64,000 bases of DNA from Szabonella alba (GTDB lineage Bacteria; Pseudomonadota; Alphaproteobacteria; Rhodobacterales; Rhodobacteraceae), in NCBI RefSeq assembly GCF_016765775.1, contig NZ_JAESVN010000001.1, positions 496,001 to 560,000 on the forward strand. The letters are read 5' to 3'. The notes below the pieces were generated by a model that did not search any database, was not told where the DNA came from, and worked only from the letters and a program-made list of their open reading frames with translations. A program made the translations under genes and the position numbers. Below, piece after piece: positions 49,190 to 57,328 of the stretch. The first letter of the stretch is position 1. The number at the start of each line of letters is the position of its first letter.

Positions 49190-51604
49190 ATGGACGGATA
49201 CAGTTTCACGGTTGACGGAATGAGCTGCGCGGCCTGTGTGGGCCGGGTGGAGCGTGTCCTGTCCGCAGTTGACGGCGCCGGGCAGGCGCGGGTCAATCTG
49301 GCCGCAGGCCGCGCCTCGGTCAAAGGCGGCGCTGCGACGGATCTGGCGGCGGCCCTGTCGCGGGCGGGGTTCACGGCGCGGGAGGATCATCTGCGCCTGT
49401 CGGTGACAGGCATGGACTGCGCCTCCTGCATCGGGCGGGTCGAGGCGGCGCTGACGGCCTTGCCCGGTGTGACCGAGGCCCGGGTCAATCTGGCAGCTGG
49501 AACCGCAGATGTTCGATTTTTGGCGGGTTCATTGACAGTAAATACCTTGATTTCCGCCATTTCCGGAATTGGATATGTCGCAAATCTGCAAGAAAAATCT
49601 GCCTCCACCCCGGATGCCAGCCTGCCCTTGCGGCGCGATTTCTGGCTGGCGGCGCTGCTGGCCCTGCCGGTTTTCCTGTCGGAAATGGGCGGGCATGTTG
49701 TTCCCGCCCTGCATCACGGACTGCATGGGGTGATCGGACAACAGGGGCTTTGGATCCTGCAATTCCTGCTGACCACGCTGCTGCTGATCGGGCCGGGGCG
49801 GCAGTTTTTCATCCGGGGCTGGGCCGCATTGCGCCATGCGGCGCCGGATATGAATGCCCTTGTAATGATCGGCACCGGTGCGGCATGGATCTATTCCAGC
49901 ATCGCCACTTTCGCGCCTGCGCTGCTGCCCGCCGCGTCGCGCGCGGTCTATTTCGAATCGGCGGCGGTGATCGTGACGCTGATCCTGCTGGGCCGCTGGA
50001 TGGAAGCGCGCGCCAAGGGCCAAAGCGGGGCCGCGATTGCCCGGCTGGTCGGGCTGCAACCGCGTCAGGCGCTGGTCGAAACCGATGGCGGAACTGAGGA
50101 ACGCCCCATCGCCGCCCTGCATCCCGGCGATATCCTGCATCTGCGCCCCGGGGAACGGGTTGCCGTGGATGGCGCGGTGATCGACGGAAATTCATGGCTG
50201 GATGAGGCCATGCTGACCGGAGAGCCGCAGCCCGTGGCCAAGGGTCCGGGCGATGCGGTGACGGGCGGCACGGTCAACGGCACCGGCGCGCTGCGCTATC
50301 GCGCGATGCGGGTCGGGCAGGATACGGTTCTGGCGCAGATCATCCGGCTGGTCGCGGATGCGCAGGGCGCGCGGTTGCCGGTGCAGGATCTGGTGAACCG
50401 GATCACCGGCTGGTTCGTGCCGGCGGTTCTGGCCGTGGCGCTGGCGACGGTCGGGCTGTGGCTGCTCTTCGGCCCCGAGCCGCGTCTGACCCATGCGCTG
50501 GTCGCAGGTGTGGCGGTGCTGATCGTGGCCTGTCCCTGCGCGATGGGGCTGGCGGTGCCGGTCTCGATCATGGTGGGGACGGGCCGCGCGGCGGAACTGG
50601 GCGTGCTGTTCCGGCGCGGCGATGCGCTGCAGGCGCTGCAGGGCATCGGCATACTGGCGCTGGACAAGACCGGCACCCTGACCGCAGGCCAGCCCGAACT
50701 GACCGATATCGCGCTGGCCGGGGGGGAGGATGAGCCGGCGATTCTGGCCGCCATTGCCGCCATCGAGGCGCGGTCCGAGCACCCGCTGGCCCGCGCGATA
50801 TGCCGCGCGGCAAATGCGCGGGGGCTGGACCTGCCCGCGGTCACCGCCTTCACTGCGCTGCCCGGCCATGGGGTCAGCGCCGAGATTGCGGGCGCGCGCT
50901 GGATCATCGGGGCGGATCGTCTGATGCGCGCCGAAGGGGTGGAGACCGCGCCGCTGTCGGACCGCGCAGACGGTTGGGCCGCCGAAGGGCGCAGCCCGGT
51001 CTATGCCGCGCGCGACGGGCGGATTGTGGCGGCGCTGGCCGTGGCTGATCCGGTGAAACCCGGCACGCCCGAGGCGCTGGCCCGCCTGCGCGCCTTGGGG
51101 CTGCGGCTGGTCATGGTGACCGGCGACAACCGCGCCGCGGCGGCGGCGATTGCTGCAAGGCTGGGGCTGGATGAGGTCCGCGCCGAGATCCTGCCCGAAG
51201 GCAAGGTTGCGGTTCTGGCCGAACTGATGCAGCAGGGCCGCACCGGGTTTGTCGGCGACGGCATCAACGATGCCCCGGCGCTGGCCCGGGCGGATGTCGG
51301 CATCGCCATCGGCACCGGCACCGATGTCGCGATGGAAAGCGCCGATGTCGTGCTGGTCTCGGGCGATCTGCGCGGCGTGGTTGCCGCACTGGAGATCAGC
51401 CGCGCCACGATGCGCAATATCCGCCAGAACCTGTTCTGGGCCTTCGGCTATAATATCGCGCTGATCCCGGTCGCGGTGGGGCTGTTCTATCCCGCCTTCG
51501 GGATGCAGCTTTCGCCCATGCTGGCGGCAGGCGCCATGGCGGCCTCGTCGCTGCTGGTGCTGGGCAATGCGCTGCGGTTGCGGTTTGCAGGAGGACGGGC
51601 ATGA
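49190..51604 (+). CDS. copA: Copper-exporting P1B-type ATPase
   Basis: Inner-membrane Cu(I) efflux pump, 804 residues. Two N-terminal HMA domains carry CAAC (residues 13-16) and CASC (77-80). Eight TM helices follow the P1B plan, with the transmembrane metal site CPC in VACPCAMGLAVP, the TGE loop in LDEAMLTGEPQPV, phosphorylation site DKTGTLT, HP in SEHPLARAI, and VGDGINDAPAL. The ATG at 49190 has GGAGG with 7-nt spacing. The longer upstream frame overlaps copZ and is not coding. Coupled by ATGA to cueR. Confidence 0.97.
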   Translation: MDGYSFTVDGMSCAACVGRVERVLSAVDGAGQARVNLAAGRASVKGGAATDLAAALSRAGFTAREDHLRLSVTGMDCASCIGRVEAALTALPGVTEARVNLAAGTADVRFLAGSLTVNTLISAISGIGYVANLQEKSASTPDASLPLRRDFWLAALLALPVFLSEMGGHVVPALHHGLHGVIGQQGLWILQFLLTTLLLIGPGRQFFIRGWAALRHAAPDMNALVMIGTGAAWIYSSIATFAPALLPAASRAVYFESAAVIVTLILLGRWMEARAKGQSGAAIARLVGLQPRQALVETDGGTEERPIAALHPGDILHLRPGERVAVDGAVIDGNSWLDEAMLTGEPQPVAKGPGDAVTGGTVNGTGALRYRAMRVGQDTVLAQIIRLVADAQGARLPVQDLVNRITGWFVPAVLAVALATVGLWLLFGPEPRLTHALVAGVAVLIVACPCAMGLAVPVSIMVGTGRAAELGVLFRRGDALQALQGIGILALDKTGTLTAGQPELTDIALAGGEDEPAILAAIAAIEARSEHPLARAICRAANARGLDLPAVTAFTALPGHGVSAEIAGARWIIGADRLMRAEGVETAPLSDRADGWAAEGRSPVYAARDGRIVAALAVADPVKPGTPEALARLRALGLRLVMVTGDNRAAAAAIAARLGLDEVRAEILPEGKVAVLAELMQQGRTGFVGDGINDAPALARADVGIAIGTGTDVAMESADVVLVSGDLRGVVAALEISRATMRNIRQNLFWAFGYNIALIPVAVGLFYPAFGMQLSPMLAAGAMAASSLLVLGNALRLRFAGGRA

Positions 51605-52002
51605 ATATCAAACAGGCCGGAGAGGCGGCGGGACTGCCCGCCAAGACGATCCGCTATTATGAAGAGGTGGGCCTGATCCGACCCTTGCGTGGGGCCAATG
51701 GCTATCGCCATTTTCGCGAAAGCGATGTGCACAAGCTGGGCTTTCTGGGCCGGGCGCGCGCCCTTGGCTTCACCATCGAGGATTGCCGGCTGCTGCTGTC
51801 GCTTTATGAGGACAAGACCCGCGCCAGTTCCGAGGTGAAGGCCATTGCCAGCCGGCATCTGGCGCAGATCAGCCACAAGATTGCGGAACTGCGCGCGATG
51901 GAGGCAACATTGTCGCATCTGGTCTCCTGCTGCGCGGGGGATGCCCGGCCCGATTGCCCGATCCTTGGCGATCTGGCACCGCCGCCGAACCAGCCTGCAT
52001 AA
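51601..52002 (+). CDS. cueR: Cu(I)-responsive MerR-family regulator CueR
   Basis: Copper sensor that activates copA, 133 residues. The N-terminal HTH reads MNIKQAGEAAGLPAKTIRYY and the wing YEEVGLIRPLRGANGYRHF. The dimerisation helix is followed by the Cu(I)-binding loop with Cys111 and Cys119 (C-x7-C, CAGDARPDC), the CueR spacing. It overlaps the copA stop by 4 bp and converges on the regulator at 52009. Confidence 0.94.
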   Translation: MNIKQAGEAAGLPAKTIRYYEEVGLIRPLRGANGYRHFRESDVHKLGFLGRARALGFTIEDCRLLLSLYEDKTRASSEVKAIASRHLAQISHKIAELRAMEATLSHLVSCCAGDARPDCPILGDLAPPPNQPA

Positions 52003-52008
52003 GCCCGG

Positions 52009-53625
52009 CTACATAAGCTTGCGCAACTGCCCCAACAGGCCGGTGCTGCGCAGCGTGCGGACCGGGTAATCGGGATCGCCCAGCATTCGGTCAAGGGTAA
52101 AGCCGGGTTCGATCTCTTCCAGCCGTTCCTTCATGCTGTTCGCGCGGTCCAGATCGCCCTGATGGGCGTAAAGCGACAGAAGATAGCGGTAAGCGGGGCG
52201 CAGCGAGGGCGCGGCAAAGGCGGCCGCCTCGGCGGCACGGATCGCCTCGGGCAGGCGGCCGGTCGCGACGCAGACCGTGGCGTGATGCGCGTCCCACCAA
52301 TGCCGGAAGGTGGACCGGCTGGCATGGCTGCGGCCCAAAGCCGACATGCGGTAGGCTTCCTCGCCATCCCCGGCCAGCATCTTCGCCACCGCCATGGCCT
52401 GCAGCGCGAACGGATTGCGGGGGTTTTCTTCAAGGGCTGCCAATGCGGCCTGACCGGCGGCCACCGCATCGCCGAACAGCATGGCGCGGGTCTGTGAGAC
52501 CAGCGCCTTGACCGTGGCATTGCCGTCCTGCCGCTCCATCGCATGGGCGGTCAGTGACAGGGCTGCATCATGCAGTTCGGGCTTGCGCGCCTGCCCCAGT
52601 TCGATGGCCTTGACCATCTGCAACAGCCCGCGCCATGCCAGATGCACGGTGTTGCCCTCGACCTCCCATGCCTGTTCCATCAGGCGGTCTGCTTCGGCCA
52701 GTTGCACCTCGTTGAACGAGAACATCTTGTGCAGCGCCAATTGCCCCAAGGCCGCCGATTTCGGCGCGTTGCGCGCCACGCCCAGAACATGCGGCACCCG
52801 TGCCACGGTCCGCTCGGCGGCCTCCCACGCGGTCTGGACCAGCGCCTCGGACCCCGCAAGCGCGGTTGCCGTGCCGGTGAAACGGCAGTCCCGGGAATAC
52901 AGCACCCGACCCGAGGCCAGATGCACGATCTTGATGAAGGCAAGGCAGATGCCGTTATCCTCGATCACATTGCAGTTGATTTCCAGATCTGCGGCGGGCC
53001 GCACGGTTCCGCCCCCGTTCGGGGCGATGGTGCAAGCTGTCAGATGCTCGGCAATATCGGCGGCGATGCGGGCTGAGATGATTTCGGCCACGATCCCCGA
53101 CCCTGTGCCGGGCAGGTTGGCCGTGGTGCAACGCAATGTGACGGGTTCGCCCGCGGGCGTCACATCGGCGCGGATCAGGCCCGCAACCACCGCAGCACCT
53201 GATGCCGCGCGATGCTCGGCCTCCCGCCAGCGCAGGAAGGCCGGATCCCGCACCGAGACGCCTTCCAGCAATTCGCCGCCGGTCTCGGCTGCCGGGCAAA
53301 GGCGCAGGGCGCCGGGGTGCAGCGACAGCCATTCGCGATCGGCGATCAGAATATCGTCATGGGCCCCAAGCGCCTTGCGCAGATCGACCAGCGCCTGCCG
53401 CAGGCTGCCTGCCGCCTGTTGCGGGCCCCGGTCACTCCAGAGCCGTTCCTCGATCCAGCGGCGGCTGCGGCGCTGATCGGGGGCAAGGGCCAGCATGGCA
53501 AGGATCGCGCGCGACTTATGCGGGCGCAGGGACAGATCCTGCCCGTCCTTCAGGGATCGCAGGGTGAACGGGCCGTAAAGGCCAAGCTCCACCACTGCCG
53601 GCTCCGGGGCCCGCTCCGCGTTCAT
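52009..53625 (-). CDS. SARP/BTAD-like transcriptional regulator with C-terminal TPR-like region
   Basis: The 538-residue protein opens with an OmpR-like winged helix (LGLYGPFTLRSLKDGQDLSL, HKSRAILAMLALAPDQRRSR) and SLRQALVDLRKALG (about 10-95), the pattern of SARP/AfsR-type activators. The middle (about 160-290) resembles a FlgO/TolB-like sensor region (GSGIVAEIISARIAADIAEH, SGRVLYSRDCRF). The C-terminal about 250 residues are TPR-like helices (PRNPFALQAMAVAKMLAGDG, PEAIRAAEAAAFAAPSLRPA). It diverges from the Gly-Thr-Gln haloperoxidase-like gene across 206 bp and may control it. AGGA lies 6 nt before the ATG. Confidence 0.82.
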   Translation of the reverse strand: MNAERAPEPAVVELGLYGPFTLRSLKDGQDLSLRPHKSRAILAMLALAPDQRRSRRWIEERLWSDRGPQQAAGSLRQALVDLRKALGAHDDILIADREWLSLHPGALRLCPAAETGGELLEGVSVRDPAFLRWREAEHRAASGAAVVAGLIRADVTPAGEPVTLRCTTANLPGTGSGIVAEIISARIAADIAEHLTACTIAPNGGGTVRPAADLEINCNVIEDNGICLAFIKIVHLASGRVLYSRDCRFTGTATALAGSEALVQTAWEAAERTVARVPHVLGVARNAPKSAALGQLALHKMFSFNEVQLAEADRLMEQAWEVEGNTVHLAWRGLLQMVKAIELGQARKPELHDAALSLTAHAMERQDGNATVKALVSQTRAMLFGDAVAAGQAALAALEENPRNPFALQAMAVAKMLAGDGEEAYRMSALGRSHASRSTFRHWWDAHHATVCVATGRLPEAIRAAEAAAFAAPSLRPAYRYLLSLYAHQGDLDRANSMKERLEEIEPGFTLDRMLGDPDYPVRTLRSTGLLGQLRKLM

Positions 53626-53831: not shown

Positions 53832-54929
53832 ATGGCATATTCCGGCACCCAGGGAACTCAGGGCACGCAAGGGACGCAGGGCACCCAGGGGACGCAAGGG
53901 ACCCAGGGGACGCAGGGCACCCAAGGAACACAAGGGACGCAGGGAACCCAAGGCGCGGGCGGCTCCTCGGGCCCCTATCTTTCGCTGGCGCTGGCCACGA
54001 CGCGCGACGGGATCGCACGGCACTGGACCGGGGCGGGCGGACAGGTGCCGGACCGGCCCACCCCGGGCGGATGGGACGGGTTCCGGCGCATGCAGGACGG
54101 ACCGCAGGCGGCGGTGCTGGATTACGAACTGGGCGCGCTTGCCGGGCTGGACCTGTCGCAACCGCAGGCGGGGGCGGTCACCAGCCCGGTCACCGGCGGC
54201 GCGGCGGTGGTCAATCTGACGCGGCCCGTCTTCGATCAGGCCTTTGTCGATGCGCAGATGGCCCTGATGCGCAGCTATGCCGATCTGCGCATCGACCGGA
54301 TGGCGGAAATTCAGGTTCAGACCGGGGATTTCCTGTCCTTCTTCGGGGCGCAGGCCTATCTTGACCGGGTGGCGACGAAACGCACGCTGGATCTGATCGG
54401 GGCGCTTTTGCGGATGATGGGACGGCTGGAAATGCGGCTTAAGCTGCATTTCGATTTTCCCCGCCCGGTCACCGTCAGCGATGAAATGCAGCCGATGATC
54501 CAGACGCCCGGCCATGGCGCCTGGCCCAGCGGTCACGCGACCGAGGCCTTTGCGGTCGCGGTCCTGTTCTCGGCGCTGAAGGCCGGAAGCGGCATTGACG
54601 CGCTGGCCGAGGTTCAGGCCCGCAGTCAGCCGATGCGCCTTGCAGCCCGGATCGCGACCAACCGCACCATTGCCGGTGTGCATTACCCCAGCGACAGCAT
54701 GGCCGGGGCCGTTCTGGGCATCGGCACGGCGGAACTGCTGACCAACTGGTTGTCGGGCGCAACTGCGACCCCGGCGCGCGCCTTCAATGGCACCGCTTTC
54801 CTTGAGGATTTCACGCTGGATACGCTGGAATCCGTGCTGCCCGCGACGGGCATGATCGCCTTTACCGCGCCGCCACCGCCGCTTCTGGCGGATCTGTGGC
54901 AGATCGCGCGGGATGAATGGGTGCGCTGA
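53832..54929 (+). CDS. Gly-Thr-Gln repeat protein with vanadium haloperoxidase/PAP2 domain
   Basis: The 365-residue product begins MAYS, then twelve GTQ triplets (residues 5-40), then GAGGSSGPY and a large helical domain. The C-terminal half has the vanadium haloperoxidase/acid phosphatase signature in order: K204-x6-R211-P (KLHFDFPRP), WPSGHATEAFAVA (PSGH at 232-235) and R278-x5-H284 (RTIAGVHYPSD). All ligand residues for vanadate or phosphate are present. There is no signal peptide or membrane segment. AGAGG lies 6 nt before the ATG at 53832. It could be a haloperoxidase or a phosphatase. The repeat is collagen-like in period (Gly-X-Y). Confidence 0.85.
   Translation: MAYSGTQGTQGTQGTQGTQGTQGTQGTQGTQGTQGTQGTQGAGGSSGPYLSLALATTRDGIARHWTGAGGQVPDRPTPGGWDGFRRMQDGPQAAVLDYELGALAGLDLSQPQAGAVTSPVTGGAAVVNLTRPVFDQAFVDAQMALMRSYADLRIDRMAEIQVQTGDFLSFFGAQAYLDRVATKRTLDLIGALLRMMGRLEMRLKLHFDFPRPVTVSDEMQPMIQTPGHGAWPSGHATEAFAVAVLFSALKAGSGIDALAEVQARSQPMRLAARIATNRTIAGVHYPSDSMAGAVLGIGTAELLTNWLSGATATPARAFNGTAFLEDFTLDTLESVLPATGMIAFTAPPPPLLADLWQIARDEWVR
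53844..53951 (+). repeat. Twelve-copy 9-bp coding repeat (Gly-Thr-Gln)
   Basis: Twelve consecutive codon triplets encode GTQ without a single amino-acid change. The DNA units differ by synonymous changes (GGC/GGG/GGA, ACC/ACG/ACT/ACA, CAG/CAA), so the repeat is not a fresh slippage product. Confidence 0.95.
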
Positions 54930-55078: not shown

Positions 55079-57328
55079 TCAGACCAGTGCGGGAACCGGG
55101 ATGCCGGTCCCGGTCAGGATCCCCGCGCCTTGCCGGTCCTGCCAGTGTGGATCGGCCGCTTCGCCGTAAAGGGCCACCAGCGCTGCCGCCTCGGCAGCAC
55201 CCGGCTGTTCGGGGAAGGTGCCATTGTCCAGTGCGGTCGCGATGACCCGGCTGACCCGCGCCGCCGCGACCGATGTGCCATTCGCAACCCGGCCCGAACC
55301 GGAAAATGTGCCAGCCGCGACCAGCCCCGTCAGGGCGGTGCCCCGGTCCCCCGGCGCGGAAAGCGTGGGCGCGGCCCGGGTGCGCGCCGATCCCGTGGCG
55401 GAATAGGGCGCGGGGGGCAGGTCTGTTAGGTCGACCGCCGCCGCAACCGCATGCACGCAATCCGAACGCGCGGTGACGAAACTGGAATGGCTGGCCCCGC
55501 GGGTTATCGGGCAATCGCTGCCCGGTGCCGTCCAGTCGGCGCTTTCGGGATCCCAGTCATGGGCGCGCGGATGGTCTAGATAGCTTTGCCTGCCATTCGT
55601 GCGGTATCCGTTCGGTGTATCGCCGCGCTGCACCTCCAGCCGCAGCGGCAGCGGACCGCCACGCAGGATGCCCAGGCCGATTGTCCAGCCGCCCGCCGGA
55701 GTGCGGATCAATCCGCGTTCCGCCTCGGTCGGGGCCATGGCCAGCACGGCATGGGCGGGCGTCACCACGCCGGGCGCGCTGGAGCGCGCGCCAAGATGAT
55801 AGAACCGCCCGACCAGCCTGCCCGAGACGTCGCGGATCGCGCGGCTGCTATTGGCCGGGACGCCGCCCAGATCCACTGGCCGCGCGCCCGGTCCGGGCGC
55901 GGTCAGATGCAGCGCCAGCCGTGACAGATCAGCCGGATCATCCGGGCGGACCTCTAGATAGCTTGCCGCGAAATCATCGGGCTGCAGACGCCATGTGATC
56001 GCTTCGTCATGGCCGGGGGCCAGTGTCAGATGCGCGCCCTGATTGGCCAGCCGCGCATTGCCCCAGGCATAGACCACGCGCACCCGGCGGCCATGGCGGG
56101 CCTGCCAGTCGGCGGCCATCCGGGCGATCAGCGCCTCGATGGCCTTGCTGCCGTCCTTGGGACCCGCAAAGGTGGCAAAGGAAATATTGATGACGACGGG
56201 GCTGTCGCGATTGATGCGCAGCGCCTGTTGCAGGATCCAGCGGACCCCTGCGACGATGCAGGGTTCAAGCTGGGTTCCGGCGGTATTGTCCACCGCCTCG
56301 GGCGGCAGTTGCACCGCCAGAAGCGGCCAGTCCCCTGCGGGGTCATTGCGATCGGGATCGGCGCCTGCGGCCAGATCCAGCACATGGGTGCCATGGCTGA
56401 ACCCCTGTTCGGTCGCGCGATGCGCCCCCGGTCCATAAAGCTGCAGGTTCAGCGCGCGATAGACCGCGCCTTCATCCAGGGCCGCCCCCCGCGCCAGCAG
56501 CGCGTCGATCTCGGGCCGGTGCAGAACCTCACCCGTCTGCCTGTAGGCCGCGCCGAAGGCTGGGGCGGGCACGGAGCGGAACGCCTGCAGCCAGATCGCG
56601 TGAAACCGCGTGCGATAGGCGGCGGCCCCGCCATCGCGGCTGTCGCGGCGGCAGAAGCGACGGTTGAGAAAGCCGATTCCGTCATCAATCACCGCGACGA
56701 TCGGGGCGGCGGGGCGCTGGGCGCAGCCGCAGTCGGGTGGCGGGCACAGTGTCAGCGGTTCAGCGCCCCGGGTGATCGGGCGGCAGGGATGCAGCACCTC
56801 CAGCACGCCCGCGAACCGGCGCTGGAATTCGGCCAGACCGAAGTCGGACCAGTAGACCGTGAAGGGTTCATCTGCGGGGGATGTCGCGCGGTCGGTCGGT
56901 GTGGCTCTGGCCTGTTCTGCCGTCTCGCGCGCGATCTCTGCGGCATCCTCGGGGTCAAGGAACACCGCCCCCTCGGCCATGGCCCGGATCAGGGCCGCGC
57001 GCGCGTCGGGCCGGTCACCGCTCCAGTCACCGGGCCGGTCACCGGGTTGGCTGGGGCACAGCCGCACGAGTGCCGATTGCAACGGGCCGGGACCGGTTTG
57101 TGCGGGGCCTGTGGCGGTGCCGGCCCTGCGCTGTCCTGCGCTGCGCCCCCGGCCATCGGCGCGACGGGTGTTATCGCCCCGCCCGCCAGCATCCCGGCCG
57201 TCCTCTTCTTGCGCGTTATCGCCCGAAAGGTGGTCCTCCCGGTCGCGGGCCAGTTCGGCCGCCCAGTGAAGATAGGCGCTTTCTGCCGGGGCAAGCGGGT
57301 CCGGTCTGGCGGGATCATCAGGGGTCAT
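55079..57328 (-). CDS. S8 family serine peptidase (subtilisin-like), no signal peptide
   Basis: The 749-residue protein carries an S8 triad: Asp in IVAVIDDGIGFLN (about 215), His in FSHGTHVLDLAAG (about 312), Ser in VANGTSVAAARVS (about 686), with the oxyanion Asn in VVYAWGN (about 424). The Asn-Ser spacing is about 260 residues, so a large insertion sits there. No Sec signal is visible. The N-terminal 150 residues are polar, rich in Asp/Arg/Gly, with GDRPGDWSGDRPD repeats. The ATG at 57328 has GGAG 6 nt upstream. Earlier ATGs lack one. It is convergent with the GTQ-repeat gene. Confidence 0.85.
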   Translation of the reverse strand: MTPDDPARPDPLAPAESAYLHWAAELARDREDHLSGDNAQEEDGRDAGGRGDNTRRADGRGRSAGQRRAGTATGPAQTGPGPLQSALVRLCPSQPGDRPGDWSGDRPDARAALIRAMAEGAVFLDPEDAAEIARETAEQARATPTDRATSPADEPFTVYWSDFGLAEFQRRFAGVLEVLHPCRPITRGAEPLTLCPPPDCGCAQRPAAPIVAVIDDGIGFLNRRFCRRDSRDGGAAAYRTRFHAIWLQAFRSVPAPAFGAAYRQTGEVLHRPEIDALLARGAALDEGAVYRALNLQLYGPGAHRATEQGFSHGTHVLDLAAGADPDRNDPAGDWPLLAVQLPPEAVDNTAGTQLEPCIVAGVRWILQQALRINRDSPVVINISFATFAGPKDGSKAIEALIARMAADWQARHGRRVRVVYAWGNARLANQGAHLTLAPGHDEAITWRLQPDDFAASYLEVRPDDPADLSRLALHLTAPGPGARPVDLGGVPANSSRAIRDVSGRLVGRFYHLGARSSAPGVVTPAHAVLAMAPTEAERGLIRTPAGGWTIGLGILRGGPLPLRLEVQRGDTPNGYRTNGRQSYLDHPRAHDWDPESADWTAPGSDCPITRGASHSSFVTARSDCVHAVAAAVDLTDLPPAPYSATGSARTRAAPTLSAPGDRGTALTGLVAAGTFSGSGRVANGTSVAAARVSRVIATALDNGTFPEQPGAAEAAALVALYGEAADPHWQDRQGAGILTGTGIPVPALV

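Follow-up and report, generated by a model that had tools for sequence, protein, structure and literature searches.

The window, a stretch of 64,000 nucleotides of Szabonella alba, contains a module of three genes. These encode a divergent regulator, an enzyme with an N-terminal tandem repeat, and a convergent subtilase of the S8 family (Table 1). The regulator is presumably of the SARP/BTAD kind. In the segment 48752-52002, an open reading frame that resembles, by eye, a copper-type P-type ATPase lies beside a MerR-family regulator gene (51601-52002).

Table 1. Genes and protein features of the repeat-enzyme module, in window positions.
Feature	Position	Strand	Remarks
Divergent regulator, winged-helix/TPR type	52009..53625	-	538 aa; Pfam Trans_reg_C below its cut-off
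Repeat-tailed PAP2/haloperoxidase-type enzyme	53832..54929	+	365 aa; no signal peptide seen by eye
(Gly-Thr-Gln)12 array, residues 5-40	53844..53951	+	Block-mean pLDDT 46-52 over residues 1-40, without secondary structure
First 20 post-array residues	53952..54011	+	Charge mirrors array charge across the family; window array net-neutral
Residues 154-190	54291..54401	+	Columns 154, 158, 161, 165, 166, 179, 180 and 190: charge inverse to array charge across the family
Active-site motif K204-x6-R211-P212	54441..54467	+	K204, R211 and P212 invariant in 61/61 aligned members
H228 (position of bromoperoxidase residue 411) and P232-S-G-H235	54513..54536	+	Sequence, family alignment and alignment with solved enzymes
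R278-x5-H284-x3-D288	54663..54695	+	Sequence and family alignment
Subtilase (S8), Csp-like predicted architecture, convergent partner	55079..57328	-	749 aa from the chosen Met; no evident signal peptide

The enzyme gene begins with an ATG and its listed coordinates include the stop codon. The protein starts as M-A-Y-S-(GTQ)12, so that only the residues AYS separate the Met from the array, and seven residues (41-47) precede the first predicted helix at residue 48. The linker after the array is short and rich in Gly and Ser. The initial annotation described twelve perfect GTQ triplets at the N-terminus, followed by a domain with K-x6-RP, PSGH, and R-x5-H motifs, and all of these are present. The 12 nine-base units of the array comprise nine distinct DNA sequences, each encoding GTQ. 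The longest perfect tandem run of the enzyme is 37 residues, against a maximum of 10 in 2000 shuffles of the same protein, and no other run (period 2-6) in the window's 311 open frames of 100 aa or more reaches 18 residues. By eye, no secretion signal is seen ahead of the array. In the AlphaFold2 model the enzyme domain is confident, with block-mean pLDDT values mostly of 94-99, and the array is disordered (46-52) and undocked.

The domain belongs to the PAP2/haloperoxidase superfamily, as the initial annotation had stated. The Pfam PAP2 match has an E-value of 6.4e-16, and a His aligns with residue 411 of an algal bromoperoxidase of known structure. Residues K204, R211, S233, H235, R278, and H284 are invariant in all 61 aligned members, and G234 is found in at least 90%. 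This set of K, R, S-G-H, R, and H is what we take to be the vanadate pocket of vanadium-dependent haloperoxidases; it does not discriminate between the two enzyme types, since acid phosphatases have the same residues. H228, seven residues ahead of the His of PSGH, is also invariant (61/61) and aligns with residue 411 of the Ascophyllum enzyme 1qi9, and the acid phosphatase 7f17 has no His at the equivalent position.

Class A acid phosphatases have the signature K-x6-RP / PSGH / SR-x5-H-x3-D. The window enzyme contains all of it except the S, which is replaced by the invariant N277. The class A non-specific acid phosphatases (PhoN, PhoC, 7f17) are also the nearest solved fold to the predicted model, with Z 18.7 over 198 residues. 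In contrast to them, the repeat enzyme has the Asn before the second Arg and the His ahead of the PSGH His, and the window enzyme has an extra N-terminal part, the fold match starting near residue 90. Several array-free homologues of the class A type start with stretches that look like signal peptides by eye, and no such stretch is seen in the window enzyme. The vanadium bromoperoxidases of Ascophyllum (1qi9) and Corallina share local motifs around PSGHAT and R-x5-H with the window enzyme, and a bromoperoxidase aligns to its model over 193 residues with Z 14.2. At 556-598 residues or more, the solved algal enzymes exceed the 365 residues of the window enzyme, and we know of no vanadium bromoperoxidase with a repeat tail or a paired protease.

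A first search covered 61 genomes, namely the window's own and 60 relatives, and 20 of them contained a match. A tandem repeat stands at the N-terminus of the window protein and of each of its 15 strongest relatives (E <= 2.4e-10); these 16 proteins use 15 different units, and the next match below them (L028) is without a repeat. A profile built from the repeat-bearing enzymes finds a match at E <= 1e-12 in 98 of 295 sampled genera of the Rhodobacter-related family, the weakest being matches by score alone, and 72 of these 295 genera, about a quarter, have an enzyme above 200 bits. Out of 121 places matched by the profile, 100 were taken with 8 kb flanks; the window, one place inside another stretch, three others, and the 16 weakest were omitted. 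A scan of GTDB genomes added at least 80 named loci. The closest relative among the matches listed in that scan is from Pseudorhodobacter sp. E13, with 72% identity and a (GTQ)11 array. The 182 enzyme reading frames obtained correspond to 168 distinct enzymes after identical last 250 residues are collapsed.

An array was defined as a perfect run of at least three units and at least nine residues, and only 4 of 164 arrays are shorter than 15 residues. The fusion of array and enzyme is real and conserved, a perfect array being present in 164 of the 168 distinct enzymes. The four others are L194, which is cut by a contig end, L137, which has imperfect NTR repeats, and L096 and L154, which have none. 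The boundary of the family is sharp: in a set of 40 loci, some of which repeat earlier places, the array is found in 23/23 homologues above 110 bits vs 1/17 below. Several of the array-free homologues below 110 bits begin with signal-peptide-like stretches, as judged by eye. Two array-free homologues from genomes of the same bacterial class (L262 and L260), at about 100 bits, have PSDY in place of PSGH together with signal-peptide-like N-termini, and are possibly inactive or altered. The repeat enzymes also occur in other alphaproteobacterial families and, outside the class, in two genomes (G689 and G889) and in the betaproteobacterium Paraburkholderia phymatum. Enzyme and array are present on plasmids of Phaeobacter, Paracoccus, Rhizobium, and Paraburkholderia.

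The arrays differ widely between proteins. The 164 arrays contain 99 different units of 2-6 residues. Period 3 accounts for 123 arrays, period 4 for 22, period 2 for 15, period 5 for 3, and period 6 for 1. Their median size is 9 copies and 27 residues, and Cys is absent from all units. Relatives have arrays such as (NSQ)9, (NAE)7, (SR)12, (NR)13, (GGGA)11, and (QG)17 at the equivalent place. The array starts at most 11 residues from the nearest upstream ATG, GTG, or TTG in 155 of 164 cases, the commonest arrangement (74) being directly after M-x-x-x. A group of divergent members (L138-L140, L145-L147, L149-L153, and L157) has basic units, namely SR, NR, and NK, with NRG in L151; PSNH replaces PSGH in three aligned members of the SR/NR/NK types.

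Within each array the sequence is almost perfectly uniform. Only 29 of 1592 in-register units are imperfect, spread over 25 of the 164 arrays, a count in which degenerate outer units are underrepresented because the unit span was seeded on the perfect run. The pN/pS within arrays is 0.017 at a pS of 0.65, i.e., synonymous sites are near saturation and amino-acid changes are almost absent. None of the 164 arrays has identical DNA units throughout. The unit is conserved over short distances and is lost over longer ones. It is common to 23 of the 24 enzyme pairs with at least 80% identity, the exception being the truncated L194; to 9 of 15 pairs at 70-80%, with L194 involved in two of the remaining pairs; to 27 of 88 at 60-70%; and to 28 of 410 at 50-60%. 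The tree of 184 tips has 114 unit changes. Copy number changes faster than the unit, as seen in two GGH arrays of 8 and 17 copies at 98.5% enzyme identity. The Phaeobacter plasmids (12 of 21 read) share one unit in 5-7 copies with steps of 9 bp, and in the ten compared at the DNA level the array differences, besides copy number, are only synonymous. In one clade the unit differs between proteins on both sides of a retained interruption, giving (NSQ)9-AAE-NSQ, (NHQ)10-STE-NHQ, and (SHQ)9-SHE-SHQ. In the 15 genomes examined with two or more copies, no unit is common to copies of the same genome; given the large number of units, this would often arise by chance. Uniformity within a protein is thus strongly selected, and the letters of the unit are nearly free. 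A low-complexity N-terminus can therefore be under extreme constraint.

The charge of the array is mirrored in the rest of the enzyme. This link surfaced while it was being tested whether the S8 protein and the regulator follow the repeat unit. The charge tests comprise 184 enzymes, i.e., the 164 array members and 20 further ones, and the partner tests comprise the 114 loci with all three genes. The analysis was exploratory, with hydropathy and volume tried after charge, and a clear result came from charge only. In phylogenetic regression (n = 184), array charge is inversely related to that of the 20 residues that follow (t = -10.2, p = 1.6e-19) and of the remaining protein (t = -4.0, p = 1e-4), with no relation for residues 20-40 after the array (p 0.78). 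No relation is found with the charge of the S8 protein (p 0.62) or the regulator (p 0.61) at the 114 loci. The 184 arrays comprise 126 net-neutral arrays, including that of the window, 20 acidic ones, and 38 basic ones. Per 20 linker residues, Lys and Arg number 2.3 after acidic arrays vs 0.53 after neutral ones, and Asp and Glu number 3.34 after basic arrays vs 1.19 after neutral ones. The tree has about 19 changes in the sign of the unit charge, and the linker effect persists with one protein per unit (n = 105; Spearman -0.64). A general constraint on net charge could be a partial source of this linker effect.

Single alignment columns give the same result. In the enzyme itself, 15 of 190 post-array columns follow array charge at p < 0.01, 14 of them with inverse sign; the null mean is 1.8, and none of 400 tree-structured permutations yields as many. 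On the 114 common loci the test gives 11/157 columns for the enzyme (null 1.7), and 4/288 for S8 (null 3.0) and 5/316 for the regulator (null 3.1), both within chance. The enzyme columns cluster at the positions between residues 154 and 190 listed in Table 1, and others are 45, 56, 89, 90, 305, and 321. Columns 154, 158, 161, and 165 are located on one face of the helix predicted for residues 136-166, and the invariant R156 and E159 are on the opposite face; neither this opposite face (p 0.25) nor the rest of the first face (p 0.34) has a charge trend. At column 161, Lys or Arg is found in 7 of the 20 acidic-array proteins and in none of the 164 others. A joint p-value for this patch would be circular, as its columns were picked on the same data, and it is not counted as evidence. 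Hydropathy co-varies in 7/305 columns (null 2.9, P 0.035), the six best of which are absent from the charge columns, and volume in 5/306 columns of the same protein (null 3.2, P 0.23). The divergent SR, NR, and NK types have a weaker linker effect and little patch effect. Array and enzyme thus co-evolve in cis. Charge matching cannot account for the uniformity of net-neutral arrays, which are the majority.

Corresponding tests on the partner proteins do not identify a reader of the unit. The similarity of S8 proteins has no clear link to the repeat unit beyond phylogeny in four identity bands (p 0.98, 0.11, 0.04, and 0.12). At the whole-protein level, unit-specific co-evolution of S8 or regulator was rejected, with partial correlations of 0.147 and 0.05 and no consistent effect across identity bands. 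A 'HAG/HAD/HAE' motif after the array was considered as a cleavage signal and discarded, being found in only 51 of 184 enzymes.

The S8 gene is an almost constant neighbour of the enzyme gene. In the 295 genera, 78 of 80 strong S8 copies (>250 bits) are within 3 kb of an enzyme match; one row, the second piece of one gene, was omitted from this pairing count. The two exceptions are a copy in G090, where the enzyme is on another contig, and a copy in G142, which is without an enzyme match in the list. Conversely, an S8 match lies no more than 3 kb from 80 of the 86 strong enzyme copies (>200 bits). The six without are from G090, from G141 and G079, and from G003, G006, and G034, the last three being SR/NR types with a different subtilase adjoining. 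By genus, both genes are present in 65, S8 only in 1, the enzyme only in 7, and neither in 222 (Fisher p 5e-56, a value that overstates independence owing to kinship). At the divergent SR/NR/NK-type loci a different S8 group is next door in 11 of 12 cases, confirmed as S8 by Pfam in the three tested. Initial neighbour counts at the 168 loci were S8 142, regulator 140, both 125, and neither 11; they are low because antisense frames won in the GC-rich DNA. When seven genomes from the 26 loci without S8 at the first count were searched again, all seven had a strong S8.

The S8 proteins retain their catalytic residues, with D in 129, H in 131, S in 130, and the oxyanion N in 130 of 131 sequences, and the window member is probably cytosolic. 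Its predicted model (pLDDT 86, pTM 0.90) has CspB as the best match in the PDB, with Z 30.8 over 423 residues, and matches CspC-CspA with Z 27.2 over 472 residues, aligned from model residue 83 on. Subtilases other than Csp reach at most Z 25.5, and the next ones align over 259-338 residues. About 260 residues lie between the oxyanion Asn and the catalytic Ser of the model, an insertion that may contain a jellyroll. The long insertion and the structural match thus liken the partner, on its predicted model, to the clostridial proteins CspB, CspA, and CspC, of which CspA and CspC are pseudoproteases. None of the hosts of the module is, to our knowledge, a spore former. According to the CspB study, CspB is a subtilase that carries a jellyroll insertion and keeps its prodomain, its activity is needed for efficient cleavage of SleC, and in pro-SleC an N-terminal propeptide precedes a hydrolase domain (PMC3567191). 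The same study reports that some pro-SleC cleavage persists without CspB catalysis and considers an indirect action, so that the Csp precedent is no proof of direct cleavage (PMC3567191). Like the CspB and pro-SleC pair, the S8 protein described here is paired with an enzyme carrying an N-terminal extension. Unlike pro-SleC, the putative substrate is a PAP2/haloperoxidase-type enzyme and not a cortex hydrolase, its extension is a uniform tandem repeat, and its cleavage is proposed from genes and models.

The regulator, in two related sequence clusters, is present in at least 140 of the 168 loci. Two relatives of it that were tested (L287 and L293) have TPRs according to Pfam, and one of them has the winged-helix domain above the cut-off. 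On Phaeobacter plasmids the three genes are annotated as 'winged helix-turn-helix', 'phosphatase PAP2', and 'S8 family serine peptidase'. In Phaeobacter inhibens M647 (L290; NZ_CP081276.1) the regulator and S8 are annotated as short fragments only and the enzyme is shortened, and the module seems to be decaying. On a Roseibium aggregatum plasmid (L300:4062-5843) a cyclase-TPR protein is found in place of the winged-helix/TPR regulator. On pPZ01 of Paracoccus zhejiangensis (L294) the module has a type VI secretion ATPase gene (tssH) in its vicinity and adjoins a gene annotated as a calcium-binding protein. Near 21 of the 168 loci there is a gene for a repeat protein of one sequence cluster, whose single tested member is RTX-type. 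A gene of another sequence cluster, identified as animal haem peroxidase (PF03098) in the two tested, occurs near the repeat enzyme in 11 of 168 loci (L069, L088, L091, L095, L132, L137, L138, L139, L145, L199, and L221), including all three SR-type loci. A second peroxidase-type enzyme nearby would fit an oxidant role of the repeat enzyme. The 30 commonest neighbour clusters contain no exporter at a fixed position. Barring frames that overlap the enzyme, three nearby frames above 150 aa have at least five repeat units, and none of them has an N-terminal array. An anti-phage system was ruled out, as PADLOC gives no match at E <= 0.1 for enzyme, S8, or regulator. A phage gene was also considered and rejected: the 25 PHROG matches of the enzyme, among the matches listed, all fall on the repeat and its edges and are mostly to tail-fibre families, and two phage tblastn matches cover at most 30% of the query.

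We tentatively favour a reading in which a soluble PAP2/haloperoxidase-type enzyme has the array as its N-terminal tail, in the manner of a propeptide. The tail would fold back onto its own protein or a neighbouring copy, contacting the linker and, at about residues 154-166, the exposed side of the helix. The Csp-like S8 protease would handle the array, most likely by clipping it, and the enzyme would thereby be switched on or released, a role modelled on the clostridial Csp proteases that serve pro-SleC activation. The divergent TPR-type regulator would set expression. The propeptide-like tail is the simplest joint reading, because the array co-evolves in cis, the protease is a near-constant neighbour, and the closest solved relatives of this protease serve the activation of a propeptide-bearing enzyme. 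The array with its constraint and turnover, the gene pairing, the Csp-like model, and the charge match in cis are results of the analysis, and from them we infer a cytosolic location, physical docking, cleavage, control of activity, and the reaction catalysed. The disordered and undocked array of the AlphaFold2 model is evidence against the propeptide-like tail, and with no clear relation between S8 similarity and repeat unit, a unit-specific reading by S8 is no more than a candidate.

In a wider form that we hold with more reserve, though still as a possibility, the three genes would constitute an undescribed control module. Its enzyme would have an internally uniform N-terminus written in almost any short word, the word being matched to the enzyme's own surface or to sister molecules, and a dedicated Csp-like protease would erase it. 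The word would be a private tag for each lineage or paralogue, and its erasure could activate an enzyme of oxidation or dephosphorylation, or set free a peptide specific to the lineage. The parts of the module are of known kinds (PAP2 superfamily, Csp-like subtilase, and winged-helix/TPR regulator). Searches of the open-licence literature on the module, its repeats, or Csp-like subtilases, each covering the best 8-15 matches, found no description of the module, and both the self-uniform, freely rewritten repeat tail and its pairing with a Csp-like protease appear to be new.

A doubtful but serious competitor is a tag for homotypic assembly. Identical repeats of many enzyme molecules would associate into an oligomer, fibre, or condensate, matching strands would select uniformity, and the units would diverge so that paralogues and species stay unmixed, with S8 releasing or clearing the assemblies. 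Arrays that are uniform within proteins and free between them agree with this, as does the lack of a common unit between copies in the 15 multi-copy genomes, and the inverse charge of the domain also fits contacts between neighbouring molecules. However, strongly charged arrays such as GHE, NAE, SR, and NR should repel each other in register, periods of 2, 3, 4, 5, and 6 permit no single packing, and with 99 units paralogues are rarely alike by chance anyway.

It is unlikely that the array is a permanent flexible tail that is never cleaved. Such a tail would serve stability, solubility, or access to the active site, or would be a low-complexity tract that slips in AAA+ unfoldases, and the charge match in cis would only prevent it from sticking elsewhere. 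The array is predicted to be disordered, and low-complexity tracts can slip in unfoldases. One study reports that the tail sequence of a substrate alters unfoldase grip (PMC6677533). Many low-complexity sequences should serve such a purpose, yet substitutions in single units are almost absent, and the tight pairing with one protease subfamily is unexplained by a permanent tail.

A peptide signal is less probable again. Short oligopeptides cut from the array by S8 would be ligands of the TPR regulator, and the unit would define a pherotype, in the manner of RRNPP systems and multi-copy pheromone precursors. Identical units in multiple copies that diverge between lineages are in line with a signal, as are the frequency of the regulator and the TPRs of the Roseibium protein in its place. 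In contrast, the commonest neighbour clusters include no exporter at a fixed position, the charge and whole-protein tests link no unit to the regulator, and units of 2-3 residues would be very short signals.

The collagen-like reading of the initial annotation, with a triple helix that trimerises or displays the enzyme, is very improbable and was rejected on the comparison of units across the family. The window member matches Pfam Collagen at 27.2 bits, which is exactly the cut-off, and it scores 21-24 bits against NCBIfam collagen-like models with cut-offs of 325-500. The window repeat resembles the Gly-x-y repeats of the bacterial collagen-like proteins Scl1/Scl2 and Lcl, whereas the family does not preserve Gly-x-y: of the 164 arrays, 85 have period 3 with any Gly and 79 do not, 49 have no glycine, 41 are not of period 3, and Pro occurs in only 7 of the 164 units. 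The window protein also has no visible signal peptide. The fusion and the superfamily proposed in the initial annotation thus stand, and its collagen-like repeat and trimerisation are not supported by the family. Neutral microsatellite noise from slippage, which the steps of 9 bp in copy number (Phaeobacter, GGH) might suggest, can be discounted almost entirely and was ruled out by the pN/pS and the Phaeobacter strain comparison, as was the strain-specific noise raised in the initial annotation, given the array in nearly all members and one unit common to 12 Phaeobacter plasmids.

A Gly-x-y match in one protein therefore need not imply collagen. The family poses a sharp question, namely what selects for perfect uniformity in a repeat that may use almost any letters, and about a hundred natural tag variants are at hand for it. 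If the likeness to Csp holds, this protease architecture extends beyond spore formers and the module provides a directly testable pair of protease and substrate. The repeat enzyme and its near-constant adjoining protease gene point to an undescribed way of controlling an enzyme.
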